64,000 bases of DNA. It comes from Cryobacterium sp. PH31-L1. Lineage in GTDB: Bacteria; Actinomycetota; Actinomycetes; Actinomycetales; Microbacteriaceae. Location: the NCBI RefSeq assembly GCF_030063145.1, contig NZ_JASISM010000002.1, positions 310,001 through 374,000 of the forward strand, in the 5' to 3' direction. The notes beneath the pieces were generated by a model. That model was given only the letters and a program-made list of their open reading frames with translations. It was not told where the DNA came from and did not search any database. Position numbers and translations under genes: made by a program. Of the stretch, positions 22,815-59,870 are shown piece by piece (the first letter of the stretch is position 1; the number at the start of each line of letters is the position of its first letter).

Positions 22815-23024
22815 GATTATTACTCCTTCACCGGCAGGAACGTGCCGGACGATCCGTTGTGAATAGGATTTGTGCGTCGCACGCCAAAGCGCACGACATT
22901 TCCATTATTACACGACGGATGCCGCGGCGCCGGTCTGACCCCTGTTTGGTCGTTTCCCAGTCAGGGCATCTACTATTTCAGAGGTGCATTCACGCGCGCC
23001 CCTACTTCTCGAAAGCGATTTTTT

Positions 23025-55311: not shown

Positions 55312-56031
55312 ATGAGCGATCTGATCGACACCACCGAAATGTATCTCCGCACGATCCTCGACCTGGAGGAAGAGCAGATCGTGCCGTTGCGGGCGCGCAT
55401 CTCCGAACGCCTCGGGCACTCGGGCCCCACGGTCTCGCAGACCGTCGCGCGCATGGAACGAGACGGCCTCGTCATCGTGTCCGGCGATCGACACCTGGAA
55501 CTCACCCCGGCCGGCCGCAGCAAGGCCGTGCACGTGATGCGCAAACATCGCCTGGCCGAACGCCTGCTCAGCGACGTGATTGGACTCGAGTGGGAGTTCG
55601 TGCACGACGAGGCCTGCCGCTGGGAACATGTAATGAGCGAACAGGTCGAACGCAAGATTTTGGAGTTGCTCGGTCACCCAACCGAATCGCCCTACGGAAA
55701 CCCGATTCCGGGCCTCGACGAGTTCGGTGAGTCTGCGGCCGTTGCCTTCATGGCCGGGGTGACCAACGTGCTGTCGGTGGTGGCGAGTTCGCCCGCGCCG
55801 GTGACCGCGGTCATCCGTCGGCTCGGTGAACCCGTGCAGTTCGACCCGGAGCTGCTGCTGCAGCTCAAGCAGAGCGGCGTGATGCCCGGTGCGACCGGGG
55901 CGTTCTCGGCCGCCGGATCGTACGTTTTAGTACAGGTCGAGGGTTTTGGTGCCGGATTAGAGCTGCCCAACGAGGTAGCCGGACACATTTTCGTGACCAC
56001 GCCGACCGGCTACAGCCCGGTCCCTCACTGA
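55312..56031 (+). CDS. DtxR-family metal-dependent regulator (IdeR/MntR-like)
   Basis: 239 aa. N-terminal winged helix (SDLIDTTEMYLRTILDLEEE, LGHSGPTVSQTVARMERDGL), dimerisation/metal-binding domain with HRLAERLLSDVIGLEW and EHVMSEQVERK, and a C-terminal SH3-like FeoA domain (VPHEV-type, GATGAFSAAGSYVLVQVEG). The metal-site residues resemble IdeR. Iron versus manganese cannot be settled by eye. Divergent from serC. Confidence 0.87.
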   Translation: MSDLIDTTEMYLRTILDLEEEQIVPLRARISERLGHSGPTVSQTVARMERDGLVIVSGDRHLELTPAGRSKAVHVMRKHRLAERLLSDVIGLEWEFVHDEACRWEHVMSEQVERKILELLGHPTESPYGNPIPGLDEFGESAAVAFMAGVTNVLSVVASSPAPVTAVIRRLGEPVQFDPELLLQLKQSGVMPGATGAFSAAGSYVLVQVEGFGAGLELPNEVAGHIFVTTPTGYSPVPH

Positions 56032-56125
56032 CATCGCGCGGGGTTCGAAGCGCAGCGAATCGAGCCAGTCGTCTCGACCTGCTGGCCGGTCCGTTACCAA
56101 TCCGTTAGAAAAGTGTTACTTCAGG

Positions 56126-56154
56126 GTGACAAATGGGCGCAGTTCTTGTAGCCT
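56126..56154 (+). promoter_or_regulatory. Promoter of the NlpC/P60 gene
   Basis: GTGACA (-35, 56126-56131) and TAGCCT (-10, 56149-56154) with a 17-bp spacer. It predicts a transcript start near 56160 and a leader of about 140 nt before the TTG start. The leader contains hairpins GACC/GGTC (56168-56181 region) and ACAAC/GTTGT. I could not match it to a known riboswitch. Confidence 0.5.
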
Positions 56155-56299
56155 CGGGGATGTCCCACAGACCATAAAAGGTCGAAGGACTCTAGTCAAG
56201 ACGCCTTCTCGCCCCGTCTCTTGATTCGGAACACACCCGCGATTAGCGAAGTGGACGGGACAACGACCTAGTGTTGTCGAGGCGCCGGAGGTTAAAACT

Positions 56300-57118
56300 T
56301 TGGCTGCATTAGGAACCAGAAGGTCTAAACGCGGGCCGAGCCGAACGTCCGATTCCCTAGAAAAAGTGGAATCGTCGGCACGCTCCCACCGAGCACTACC
56401 GCGCGCGACCCCGAAGAAGCGCCGTGGCGGTTTCGCCAACATTGTCGTCATGACTCTCGCCACCGGCCTCGTTGCCACGATGGCTCTCCCGGCATATGCC
56501 TTCGCTCCCGGTTCGAAGGACGCCTCCTTCAAGGCCACCGAGTCCACGGAGATGTCCAAGGCTCAGGCGCAGGCTGTTGAAGTCGATGCGCAGGCCGCAA
56601 CCGTGAGCGTGGCTCGCGAGGGTTTCACCGCGACCACTCCCGAAGAACTTGCTGCGGCCGTTGCTGCCGCCGCCGCGGAAACCCGCCGTGTCGAGGTTGC
56701 CGCTCAGATGACTTCCTACGCCGCAAGCTATTCGGGCCCGAGTGTTGCCGACTTCCTGGCCAACCCGACCTACCCGAATTTTGATCTCGCATCCGTTTTC
56801 AATGTGGCCTCGCAGTATCAGGGCACACCCTATGTTTACGGTGGCGCCACCCCGGCCGGCTTCGATTGCTCCGGCTTCATCATGTACGTCTACGCGCAGT
56901 TCGGCATCAGCCTGCCGCACTCTTCGGTGGGCCAGGGAGCTGCCGGAACGAAGATCTCGATCGAGGATGCCGTGCCCGGCGACCTCGTGATCATGAACGG
57001 TCACGACGGCTTCTATGCGGGCAACGGAAATATTCTGCACGCGCCGTACACAGGCCAGTCCGTGCGGATCCAGCCCATCTGGACCAGCGATTATTACATC
57101 GTGCGGATCGGCATCTAG
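56300..57118 (+). CDS. Secreted NlpC/P60 peptidoglycan hydrolase
   Basis: 272 aa, TTG start behind GGAGG. A basic 44-residue N-terminal extension precedes the hydrophobic signal/anchor (about 45-67, ending LPAYAFA). An Ala-rich coiled region (about 85-140) follows, then the NlpC/P60 domain from about 165 with catalytic Cys in FDCSGFIMYV (residue 190) and His in NGHDGFYAG. Probably a D,L-endopeptidase cleaving wall stem peptides during division or growth. Confidence 0.9.
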   Translation: MAALGTRRSKRGPSRTSDSLEKVESSARSHRALPRATPKKRRGGFANIVVMTLATGLVATMALPAYAFAPGSKDASFKATESTEMSKAQAQAVEVDAQAATVSVAREGFTATTPEELAAAVAAAAAETRRVEVAAQMTSYAASYSGPSVADFLANPTYPNFDLASVFNVASQYQGTPYVYGGATPAGFDCSGFIMYVYAQFGISLPHSSVGQGAAGTKISIEDAVPGDLVIMNGHDGFYAGNGNILHAPYTGQSVRIQPIWTSDYYIVRIGI

Positions 57119-57153
57119 TTCGCCTCCTCCCGTGAACACTAGGTAACAGCTCA

Positions 57154-57194
57154 CACAAATGGCGCATACAGGTTCACCTGTTGCGCCATTTGTG
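57154..57194 (+). terminator. Very strong hairpin after the NlpC/P60 gene
   Basis: CACAAATGGCGCA, one bulged T, ACAGG, TTCA loop, CCTGT, TGCGCCATTTGTG: an 18-bp stem with one bulge, 35 bp after the stop. No T-tract follows on the plus strand, so it may be a terminator or an RNA-stability structure. Confidence 0.7.
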
Positions 57195-57242
57195 GGTTAA
57201 CCTAGTGCCCTGATGTAGTTTGTAGGGCCGTGAGGAGAGCCA

Positions 57243-57356
57243 ATGCATGAGCGACGCACTATCCACACCATGGATGTGCGCGGTCGCGAGTGCTTTCGGC
57301 GTAGTTGTCAGAGCGAGAAGAGCTGTGTGAGCAGCCAGAAGGCGTTGTCATTGTGA
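57243..57356 (+). CDS. Candidate 37-aa Cys-containing peptide in a short transcription unit
   Basis: ATG 57243, behind AGGAGAG, reads a 37-residue frame (MHERRTIHTMDVRGRE start) with three Cys and stops inside the following terminator. A second frame from ATG 57247 (27 aa, MSDALSTPWM start) has better spacing to the same ribosome site. One of the two could be a leader peptide, or the region may be a small RNA. No family recognised; support is context only. Confidence 0.3.
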   Translation: MHERRTIHTMDVRGRECFRRSCQSEKSCVSSQKALSL

Positions 57357-57371
57357 CGGCGCCTTTTTTTG
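57339..57371 (+). terminator. Intrinsic terminator bounding the 57.2-57.37 kb unit
   Basis: A 12-bp stem including two G-U pairs (AAGGCGTTGTCA/TGACGGCGCCTT), TTG loop, then seven Ts. It lies upstream of, not after, a known gene, so something short must be transcribed into it. Confidence 0.88.
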
Positions 57372-57464
57372 TACTCTTTTTCGCTTTGCCACGCTCCTGT
57401 TCTTTCCGCATTGGATGTAGTTCGAATGGCTGGAAGCCGTCCAGCCTCCTTCGAAAGGGAGCGC

Positions 57465-57962
57465 ATGCGCACACTGGTACTCAATGCGGGCTATGAGCCC
57501 CTCGCCGTCGTCTCGTTCAAACGAGCGCTCATTCTGGTGATGAATCAGAAGGCCACGATCGTACAGTCGGATCAGAACCACCCCGTTTTCGCGGCCTCGG
57601 GCTCGTGGGATCGTCCGAGCGTCATTTTGCTCACCCGCTACGTGCGCATCCCCATGTCGCGCCTGGTGCCGGTGAGCCGCCGCGGGGTGTTGCGCCGCGA
57701 CGAGCATCGTTGCTGCTATTGCGGCAAGTCGGCGGCCACAATCGACCACGTGCTGCCGCGGTCGCGCGGTGGCCGCGACACCTGGGACAACCTCGCGGCC
57801 TGCTGTCTGCGCTGCAACAACCTCAAGAGCGACCACACCCCGGCCGAGATGGGCTGGGAGCTGCGCTTCACCCCACGGATGCCGCAGGGCACGACCTGGA
57901 TCGTACGCGGCGTCGAGAGGCCCGAGCAGGAATGGGATGCCTACCTGGCGCCCGCCGCGTAG
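57465..57962 (+). CDS. HNH endonuclease-domain protein
   Basis: 165 aa from ATG 57465 (AAAGGGAG upstream). A short N-terminal domain (MRTLVLNAGYEPLAVVSF) is followed by the HNH nuclease with zinc Cys pairs (CCYCGK, CLRCNN) and HNH residues in ATIDHVLPRSRGGRDTWDN. This single-copy HNH protein is widespread in Actinobacteria; its biological role is not defined. Confidence 0.87.
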   Translation: MRTLVLNAGYEPLAVVSFKRALILVMNQKATIVQSDQNHPVFAASGSWDRPSVILLTRYVRIPMSRLVPVSRRGVLRRDEHRCCYCGKSAATIDHVLPRSRGGRDTWDNLAACCLRCNNLKSDHTPAEMGWELRFTPRMPQGTTWIVRGVERPEQEWDAYLAPAA

Positions 57963-57972
57963 GCTTTTGGTC

Positions 57973-58362
57973 ATGCGAATCAACATTACGAGCGTGTTCG
58001 TCGACGACCAGGTGAAGGCGCTGCGGTTCTACACCGAGGTGCTGGGCTTCGTTAAAAAGAACGACGTTCCGCTGGGTGAGGACCGCTGGCTGACGGTGGT
58101 ATCCCCGGAGAACCCTGAGGGTACCGAACTGTTGCTGGAACCGAGCCGCCACCCGGCAGCGAAGCCGTTCACGGATGCCCTGGTCGCCGACGGCATCCCG
58201 TTCACCCAGTTCGCTGTCGATGACGTTCCGGCGGAGTATGAGCGGCTGCGCGGCCTCGGGGTGCGCTTCACCCAGGACCCCACGGTCATGGGGCCGGTGA
58301 CCACGGCGGTTCTCGACGACACGTGTGGCAACCTCATTCAGATTGTGCACATGGCCAGTTAG
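57973..58362 (+). CDS. VOC-family (glyoxalase-like) protein
   Basis: 129 aa. Two beta-alpha-beta-beta-beta units with RINITSVFVDDQVKALRFYT at the start and DDTCGNLIQIVHMA at the end, where metal ligands normally sit. Similar to Glo_EDI-type glyoxalase/bleomycin-resistance proteins. Substrate unknown. The stop codon of the HNH gene contributes to a TAGGCT-N7-ATG possible leaderless start. Confidence 0.85.
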   Translation: MRINITSVFVDDQVKALRFYTEVLGFVKKNDVPLGEDRWLTVVSPENPEGTELLLEPSRHPAAKPFTDALVADGIPFTQFAVDDVPAEYERLRGLGVRFTQDPTVMGPVTTAVLDDTCGNLIQIVHMAS

Positions 58363-58446
58363 CTGGCCCAAGGCCACAGGCGTTCGGGTGAAGCGGACCC
58401 GCCATCGAGCGGGCGGACCGGCGCGACCGGCTAAACTTGCCGAACC

Positions 58447-58518
58447 GCCTCTGTAGCTCAGTGGAAGAGCAATTCCGTCCTAAGGAAATGGCCGGGGGTT
58501 CGAATCCCTCCAGGGGCA
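58447..58518 (+). tRNA. tRNA-Arg (CCT)
   Basis: 72-nt cloverleaf: acceptor GCCTCTG/CAGGGGC, D-arm GCTC/GAGC, anticodon loop GTCCTAA reading CCT, T-loop TTCGAAT. CCA is not encoded. The accessory-type gene content to its right makes it a candidate integration site. Confidence 0.9.
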
Positions 58519-58531
58519 CGACGCTATACGG

Positions 58532-58570
58532 CCCTGCATCCCTTGTAAACACTGGGCTGTAGGGTTTTTT
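58532..58570 (+). terminator. Terminator after tRNA-Arg
   Basis: CCCTGCA/TGTAGGG stem extended by CCC/GGG, followed by TTTTTT. Confidence 0.8.
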
Positions 58571-58667
58571 GGCTCCACAGGGTCGGGAGAACTAACCCAT
58601 GTCAGGTTTATAGCGAGGACCTGCACGAACGCACGGCGCACGCGGATCGCGAATGGGGACACCGCGC

Positions 58668-59381
58668 CTAAATCATGATGCGACTGCTGATCACGTTTGC
58701 GGCGCTTGTGTGCATCGGCTCTTGATGCGAGCGGGCGTGCTCGCGCAGCCGCTGGAAAGCTTCATCCATGTTGATACCGTTGCGTTGAGCGATGACTCCC
58801 TTGGCCTGCTCGATGAATACTCGGCTGTTGAGGGCACGCTGTAGCTGTTCGTTTGTCGTTGCGTTCTCTCGAGCCGTGCGTTCATGGAGGATGCTGATTG
58901 TAGCGACGTCGGCTAGGGCCTGGCCGATTGTCGCGTCTTCATCACTCAACACGCCTTTCTCCGTTCGAAACAGATTCAGCGCCCCGATGGTGTGCGGACG
59001 AAAGCGCATCGGAAGGGCATGAACGGACTGGAATCCCTGGGACAGTGCCTCGGCCTGAAAACTGGGGTAGAGATCCCCGCTGGTGGCGATATCGCTGAGC
59101 GTGACGACCTTCCCGGTCCGGAACGCATCTATGCAGGGACCTGCTCCGGCTTCACGTTGCAAAACTTCAACGATCCGGCTTTCTTCACTCGTGGAGGCGA
59201 CAACCTGCAGGTTGCCGTTGTGGTCCGTCAGGAGGATGCCAGCTGCGGTGGCGTCAAGTAACACCACGCATTGGTCGACCAGGGTGTGCAAGAGATCGAG
59301 CACGTCATATTCGCCGACCAGTGCGTCGGCTAGTTCTACGAATGCTCCGCTTACCAGCGCGGCCCGGGTCATGCTCGTCAT
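58668..59381 (-). CDS. GAF-ANTAR RNA-binding antiterminator-type regulator
   Basis: 237 aa. The N-terminal GAF sensor domain (LVDQCVVLLDATAAGILLTD, GALNLFRTEKGVL) is followed by the three-helix ANTAR domain (about 178-222: QRALNSRVFIEQAKGVIAQ, INMDEAFQRLREHARSH). ANTAR proteins bind paired RNA hairpins and prevent termination. No kinase or obvious target hairpin pair lies next to it, so the target is probably elsewhere. Confidence 0.9.
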   Translation of the reverse strand: MTSMTRAALVSGAFVELADALVGEYDVLDLLHTLVDQCVVLLDATAAGILLTDHNGNLQVVASTSEESRIVEVLQREAGAGPCIDAFRTGKVVTLSDIATSGDLYPSFQAEALSQGFQSVHALPMRFRPHTIGALNLFRTEKGVLSDEDATIGQALADVATISILHERTARENATTNEQLQRALNSRVFIEQAKGVIAQRNGINMDEAFQRLREHARSHQEPMHTSAANVISSRIMI

Positions 59382-59870
59382 GCTGTTGAGTGTGGCCCTG
59401 AACTCTTAGCGGATGCCGCGTCAGAGCCGAATGTCAGTCCTTTGGCAGGTTGAACGATCCTCCTCCAACGTACGAGCGAGCAGGGCCACACGTCTAGCGA
59501 ACACGGGGCTGTGACAGGTTGCGGATCCGGTGAAGATTGCGACCTGAATCAGGCGGCCAGAGCCGGAAACTCGAATCCAAGAAGTAGTGGCGCGATTGGA
59601 AAACCGGTGTCTGGCCTTGCCCCGGTTCGTGGACACGGGTTAAGCGATTCGATGCGCGATCAACTATTACAAAGGTAAAGACGGTGAGGAAGGACGACGC
59701 GGCGACCCTCGCCGCACACTAGGACGAGATCCGACGTTCCGTCAACAATGCGAAAGCAACAATGCTAAAATCCAGCGGCTGGCATCTTCTAACCCACTTC
59801 GCACGGTCAGTAAAACCCAGGGTTTGGTGAAGTTGTCCGGTGGAGGATGCGCGTCCGTCCTTATCGCCCG
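59382..59870. other. 489-bp region without a recognised gene
   Basis: Between the GAF-ANTAR gene and the frameshifted gene. Base composition looks less GC-rich in places (e.g. 59640-59690, 59740-59810) and all frames are broken by stops or have atypical codon use. It may be decayed coding sequence. No repeat or RNA gene recognised. Confidence 0.5.

Follow-up and report, generated by a model that had tools for sequence, protein, structure and literature searches.

What lies between the NlpC/P60 gene and the HNH endonuclease gene in the 64,000-nt stretch of Cryobacterium sp. PH31-L1 analysed here (the window)? The original prediction described a stand-alone, terminator-bounded transcription unit with no known gene, which could yield a small RNA, a leader peptide/attenuator for HNH, or a small protein. 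We found that the interval is instead a conserved leader of the downstream HNH gene in the Microbacteriaceae. This nuclease gene leader resembles an attenuator and is retained in much of the family; we found no description of it. Of the three options we retain the HNH leader, since strong model matches lie only beside HNH, HNH lacks a -10-like site of its own, and the leader frame reaches the terminator; a free-standing small RNA and a small protein are disfavoured. Our main reading, with a probability of about 0.68, is that the interval is the 5' leader of HNH and acts as an attenuator of the pyrBI kind: the ribosome that completes translation of the leader would cover the terminator. Translation thus probably decides whether HNH is switched on. 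The features of the locus are as follows.

57118: end of the NlpC/P60 gene, the upstream neighbour (reading of the window)
57132-57147, +: GTGAACACTAGGTAAC, an 11-bp-spaced repeat resembling an MtrA box (pattern scan; candidate site)
57154-57194, +: strong hairpin lacking a T run, located 3' of the NlpC gene and 5' of the leader promoter (folding)
57198-57203, +: TAACCT, predicted -10 of the leader promoter (TANNNT scan of filtered loci)
57233-57239, +: AGGAGAG, leader ribosome binding site (reading of the window; GGAG alignment columns)
57243-57356, +: leader ORF of 37 aa, MHERRTIHTMDVRGRECFRRSCQSEKSCVSSQKALSL, with a TGA stop within the terminator
57247-57330: overlapping 27-aa frame, start at 57247 (ORF list)
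57255-57280, +: stem-loop within the leader ORF (covariation, 44 sequences)
57294-57296, +: leader codon 18, TTT in the window (read off the ORF)
57337-57370, +: intrinsic terminator, the proposed attenuator (stem and T-run scan, covariation)
57422-57454, +: second hairpin, in the HNH 5' UTR (covariation, 54 hand-picked loci)
57465-57962, +: HNH endonuclease gene of 165 aa, ATG at 57465, the proposed regulated gene (Pfam)

The predicted ribosome site and both tiny frames are present, as is the seven-T terminator ahead of HNH, which is kept with covariation. The absence of a known gene also stands as far as tested. No covariance-model match to any Rfam 15 family was found in 56000-57500 up to E 5, and none fell in the interval at the gathering threshold when the whole window was searched. 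Six leader peptides had no match in NCBIfam, and the sole Pfam match for four leader peptides was P53_tetramer, insignificant at E 0.16 and below its cut-off. Among the matches listed from the open-licence literature, no title describes this leader element.

For 80 genomes, 70 from the family and 10 from other families of the order, we retrieved the 600 bp preceding HNH; among the upstream regions listed, most family members keep the same order of parts. An ORF filter, which required a stop within -10 to +40 of the terminator and gave points for an Ile-Arg motif, passed 82 of 137 upstream sequences (L144 included) and failed 55. L059 and L144 were omitted as repeat places of L030 and L046. A covariance model was built from 44 of 50 picked leaders (39 of 56 in the first alignment).

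A leader frame that runs into its terminator

The terminator consists of a 14-bp stem (57337-57367) and a T7 run (57364-57370). It is the sole terminator-like site in 55500-59500; the shuffle mean was 2.7, so the pattern by itself is not rare. In the 44 aligned sequences 97.3% of its cells are paired and 5 of 11 pairs are changed on both sides. The ORF stem-loop has an inner stem (57261-57265 with 57271-57275), a CACCA loop and outer pairs below; 7 of its 9 pairs are changed on both sides, with 86.4% of cells paired (44 sequences). Together the two structures have 92.4% of cells paired and 72 cells changed on both sides, which none of 500 shuffles equalled and slid controls fell far below, with shuffles that ignore relatedness and a structure derived from the same 44 sequences. 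Conservation of RNA structure across relatives, one of the checks suggested with the original prediction, is therefore seen in both elements.

The reading frame is tied to the terminator. The GGAG columns are invariant or nearly so in both alignments (A1 and A2), and 44 of 51 loci have a start-to-terminator distance of 2 mod 3, over eight lengths from 62 to 116 nt; the remaining seven comprise six at 0 mod 3 and one at 1 mod 3, over four lengths. Stops were counted without the ORF filter: 77 of the 80 named loci with a model match were used, and start and terminator were called in 70 of these 77. Frame 0 is open to, into or through the terminator in all 70, and frames 1 and 2 reach it in 41 and 40. 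The leader stop falls at the hairpin base in 14, inside the hairpin in 27 and beyond it in 29; in Agromyces it lies beyond the hairpin in 17 of 17. At several loci from Cryobacterium and Agromyces, among them L162, L166 and L174, the leader frame crosses the terminator and the HNH 5' UTR, and sometimes the HNH start codon. Judged from sequence, translational coupling is possible in these leaders.

The leader is not intact everywhere. Of the 39 own-genus loci, 37 were examined, and 5 of these have no start codon at the usual place; the same is true of 4 of 21 named Cryobacterium loci, drawn partly from the same genomes. In four of the five own-genus cases an in-frame upstream ATG was called (L029, L031, L037, L038), and most of the leader appears by eye to be lost in L034. 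The element in Cryobacterium is partly decaying or shifted. In genus g79 (L047, L048, L053) the leader is rewritten and encodes a 20-aa His/Cys-rich peptide, MGTMRHHSHHCFHHHCAWNC in L047, with its stop at the terminator base.

In the pyrBI attenuator of Escherichia coli, where polymerase pausing in the leader is sensitive to UTP, the leader ORF enters the terminator, and a trailing ribosome blocks the hairpin without the need for an antiterminator. The leader ORF here likewise overlaps or abuts its terminator, and we propose that a ribosome behind the polymerase would prevent the hairpin without an antiterminator. Unlike pyrBI, the gene is an HNH nuclease rather than a pyrimidine gene, and the leader has a covarying stem-loop in its ORF and, in many genera, AUA enrichment. 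More generally, a short ORF with a ribosome site lies between a promoter and a terminator ahead of one gene, as in ribosome-mediated attenuators. The element would be a new variant of ribosome-mediated attenuation, not a new category.

We infer the following sequence of events. Transcription would begin just 3' of TAACCT (57198-57203) and cross the leader ORF. The terminator would be conditional: by default, transcripts would end at 57337-57370, giving a short RNA of ~160 nt. A ribosome close behind RNA polymerase that reaches the end of the leader would act as the anti-terminator, covering the left arm so that polymerase enters HNH; with the stop inside the terminator and a ribosome over the left arm, the hairpin could not form. 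In most other genera AUA codons would set the delay between ribosome and polymerase, and a ribosome stalled at AUA would leave HNH off.

Folding agrees with this model. The predicted probability of the terminator averages 0.95 without a ribosome (81 leaders) and 0.95 with a ribosome footprint at the first AUA (51 leaders). With a blocked footprint at the stop codon it is predicted to be 0.01, by construction, since that footprint covers a terminator arm. One leader, L075, has a weak terminator (0.33). According to the portion of PMC4824070 drawn on here, termination in E. coli fell from ~90% to <10% once a stop codon was shifted to a position 5 bp ahead of a terminator. Taken with the folding, these E. 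coli data, as that portion gives them, make translation-dependent read-through the simplest model. The same portion states that a terminator within ~100 nt of the start is usually out of the ribosome's reach unless polymerase pauses. As the distance from start codon to terminator is 62-116 nt in these leaders, the model calls for a pause, and the ORF stem-loop is a candidate signal that could synchronise ribosome and polymerase. If correct, the model would couple control of a widely retained HNH nuclease to translation, and the family would supply dozens of natural variants (stop at the base, inside or beyond) for trailing-ribosome control of terminators in actinobacteria.

Classical attenuation would instead rely on competing terminator and antiterminator hairpins that sense one amino acid. 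Attenuators of the trp/his type, including Corynebacterium ilvBNC, are arranged as a promoter, a short ORF with special codons, a terminator and a structural gene. The parts here follow the same order, with enriched codons in a short ORF ahead of the terminator, and in L115 a ribosome at AUA is predicted to free a strong upstream competitor of the terminator (1.0). L115 is the exception among 81 leaders. Unlike the trp/his type, the leaders have no general antiterminator for the left arm, whose upstream pairing averages just 0.01-0.06 in the computed states, and the stop is not well upstream, as in all 70 loci the frame extends at least to the base of the terminator. For amino-acid attenuators, the portion of PMC4824070 drawn on here gives a distance of >20 bp, whereas these leaders end at, in or beyond the terminator. 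We therefore regard classical attenuation as unlikely.

The leader can also be set beside the regulatory RNAs that precede amino-acid genes in Actinobacteria, reportedly cis leaders, some with small ORFs. It shares the phylum and the cis arrangement; it has no amino-acid gene downstream and no Rfam or NCBIfam match.

AUA codons in the leader

The in-frame codon AUA is enriched in leaders of most other genera examined. Across 55 filtered leaders from other genera, we counted 62 in-frame ATA triplets and 4 out of frame. At least one ATA is found in 50 of these 55, a proportion biased upward because the filter drops frames running far past the terminator and awards the Ile-Arg points. ATA occupies codon 18, which is TTT in the window, in 29 of the 55. 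This could reflect a single conserved RNA word, so we repeated the count without codons 17-19 and with a single entry per genus and position, which left 20 in-frame and 4 out-of-frame occurrences. ATT and TTT have no such frame bias, and ACA, AGA and GTA lean to another frame.

The bias extends to other sets of sequences. The 42 filter-rejected ORFs outside the genus have 19 ATA in frame versus 8 out (3 + 5). Named loci outside Cryobacterium and Agromyces have 38 in frame and 4 out, with ATA in 29 of 37 leaders; this count is only partly independent, as 23 leaders among the 77 named loci are identical to ones fetched earlier (another 5 are identical to a model sequence). The 27 previously unseen leaders outside the two genera exclude those 23 and give 25 versus 3, with ATA in 20 of 27. 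ATA density per kb is 11.5 in the leader ORF, against 0.85 in the terminator-HNH gap and 3.0 over the 50 nt that precede the start. In 39 long ORFs of the window, ATA makes up 29 of 579 Ile codons. Other codons, CAA, AGG and TGT among them, are also over-represented in the leaders, about threefold compared with about tenfold for ATA, on a baseline of this one genome's usage.

Cryobacterium itself is reversed, with 1 ATA in frame and 15 out in the filtered own-genus set. The named Cryobacterium loci have 0 in frame versus 7 out (in-frame AUA in 0 of 17), in-frame AUA is found in 0 of 18 Agromyces leaders, and the window's own leader has no AUA.

Given the enrichment seen in most of the other genera examined, the switch may be set by AUA decoding, and in-frame AUA is a concrete candidate signal read from the leader sequences. 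A stronger version, which we put forward tentatively and consider rather improbable, is that in most genera of the Microbacteriaceae AUA decoding acts as a gate on the nuclease gene, HNH being made only when AUA is read quickly. If so, the leader would test the reading of the rare AUA by lysidine-modified tRNA-Ile2; tRNA-Ile2 supply (e.g., from a tRNA-carrying phage) or a slowed RNA polymerase would turn the nuclease on, and in Cryobacterium and Agromyces the AUA-dependent part of the gate would have been lost. Separately, L137, from another family of the order, has upstream of HNH a small ORF with three in-frame ATA and a terminator, which suggests AUA leaders beyond the Microbacteriaceae.

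Co-occurrence with the HNH gene

By blastn, 57195-57375 matched 37 of 37 genus genomes (its own included), 25 of 299 family genomes in 8 of 85 genera (own included) and none of 23 further genomes from the order. The covariance model reached further. At E<=2e-5 it matched 79 of 120 family genomes, with one match per genome, each directly upstream of HNH on the same strand; 31 of the 79 genomes supplied model sequences and match by construction, and 48 did not. These E-values are rough, as the model was briefly calibrated; many loci are related. At E<=0.01 there were 105 matches, of which 83 adjoin HNH at a median gap of 81 nt and the other 22 are weak (best 1.1e-4). HNH itself was matched at E<=1e-30 in 103 of the 120 genomes, and 20 of these 103 have no adjacent model match at E<=0.01 (24 at 2e-5). 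The 17 genomes without an HNH match at that threshold had no strong model match, two weak ones (0.004, 0.006) and none in the other 15. Among 149 genomes of the order, 25 matched at E<=0.01; the 10 strong matches are family genomes, and the other 15 are weak (5e-4 or worse), many of them to the terminator only, so we do not claim the element outside the family.

TANNNT is an actinobacterial -10 pattern, and TAACCT at 57198-57203 fits it. All 81 filtered loci carry the pattern 20-75 nt ahead of the leader start (38.7 expected), at a median distance of 42 nt and mostly 39-47 nt. Between the terminator and the HNH start it was found in 3 of 81, versus 28.3 expected; expected counts come from shuffles keeping single-base content only, with relatedness uncorrected, and the gap was scanned for TANNNT alone. 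Because the pattern is rare after the terminator, HNH seems, from its sequence, to draw on the leader promoter.

These data bear on a free-standing small RNA of ~160 nt acting in trans, for which adjacency to HNH would be mere conserved gene order. Such an RNA is in keeping with the separate -10-like site, the terminator, the covarying structure and the high sequence conservation within the genus, and the default product of our model is just such a short RNA. Yet at E<=2e-5 none of the 120 family genomes has a site away from HNH, and the 17 without an HNH match have no strong site at all. HNH would also be left with no promoter-like site, and the constraints on frame and AUA would be unexplained. 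We consider a trans-acting RNA quite unlikely, and favour a leader of HNH.

The HNH protein matches Pfam HNH_5 (2.2e-13) and HNH (4.7e-11). Its closest PHROG is an HNH endonuclease family (3.2e-34), and solved structures match the HNH domain only, namely IscB-like and Cas9-like nucleases and an HNH endonuclease. A defence role was rejected, as PADLOC gave weak matches (best 1.5e-7) that fall on the shared HNH core.

The second hairpin, in the HNH 5' UTR, has an AGCCG loop closed by A-U and an outer stem that abuts the HNH ribosome binding site. In the alignment, 86.6% of cells are paired and 10 of 12 pairs are changed on both sides, counts that lean towards the hairpin since the 54 loci were picked by hand from 137, mostly where it was visible. 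A simple loop pattern fits 50 of the 54 picked loci. The hairpin is possibly a second control layer or a means of autoregulation. It was rejected as a repeated regulon motif, as the exact core occurs once in its own genome, and with <=2 mismatches it is found 13 times forward and 16 times in reverse, versus 12 and 13 for the control.

The leader peptide and the upstream region

Could the 37-aa frame encode a functional small protein, or a dual-function RNA? Its ribosome site, start and frame are kept in most loci, and 76 of 81 filtered peptides are gapless and insertion-free through residue 22, with TIHTMD and RHSS residues common to many leaders. However, the shared residues overlap the conserved stem-loop, the C-terminal half is not conserved, and there is no family match at cut-off. 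A synonymous excess appears in genus g33 (p 0.02) and is absent in the other clades tested; a wrong-frame test gave the same p of 0.02 (g1c, frame 2). The pooled test (101 distinct blocks, 204 close pairs, taking in 28 of the 77 named loci additionally) found no synonymous bias over codons 2-22, with fractions of 0.312, 0.294 and 0.301 in frames 0-2 and differences even over codon positions. With the g33 signal isolated, the wrong frame equal to it and the pooled test flat, we do not claim a conserved peptide, and a functional small protein is highly unlikely. Evidence for translation of the attenuator leader accordingly comes from the frame, the start and AUA.

The suggested check of frame conservation separated the two tiny frames: the 37-aa frame is kept family-wide, and the 27-aa frame is not conserved outside its own clade. 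The latter was rejected, with 3 synonymous among 18 changes versus 5.2 expected in 11 own-clade loci, over a compared stretch that extends beyond that frame's stop.

Upstream of the leader, 57119-57215 folds at -45.9 kcal/mol (z -7.3), and 0 of 200 shuffles were equally stable. The hairpin at 57154-57194 is thus as strong as first described; it lacks a T run, so a role as intrinsic terminator of the NlpC gene is at most putative. The 3' arm of the hairpin comes close to TAACCT at 57198-57203. By eye, a hairpin occurs at this place in many species, with a stem sequence that varies between them.

By tblastn on the fetched DNA, the gene upstream of the leader is NlpC in 50 of 81 loci, a DtxR-type gene without an NlpC match in 10, and undetected in 21, where it may still be present as the fetched sequences were short. 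A very improbable alternative is that the second hairpin terminates read-through from NlpC and that HNH has a promoter of an unscanned type: NlpC is indeed the usual neighbour and TANNNT was the one pattern scanned in the gap, but the leader also occurs behind other upstream genes, a promoter-like site is conserved after the NlpC gene, and the leader is absent where HNH is absent.

Of 25 own-genus loci, 16 carry the MtrA-like pattern 60-170 nt ahead of the leader start (0.01 expected); in the same zone it occurs in 11 of 55 other loci (0.00 expected). The pattern scanned is looser than the C. glutamicum MtrA consensus, RTAACAATttnRTAACAAT as given in the portion of PMC3353115 drawn on here. 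By eye, four GTTAC/GTTAG/GTGAC half-sites with an 11-bp period, resembling an MtrA box, lie before the NlpC gene (56093-56130), and a similar box precedes the HNH leader (57132-57147).

Elsewhere in the window, an msiK RNA (RF01747) lies on the minus strand at 22817-22874 (62 bits). An ORF on the minus strand at 58668-59381 looks from its sequence like a putative GAF-ANTAR regulator.
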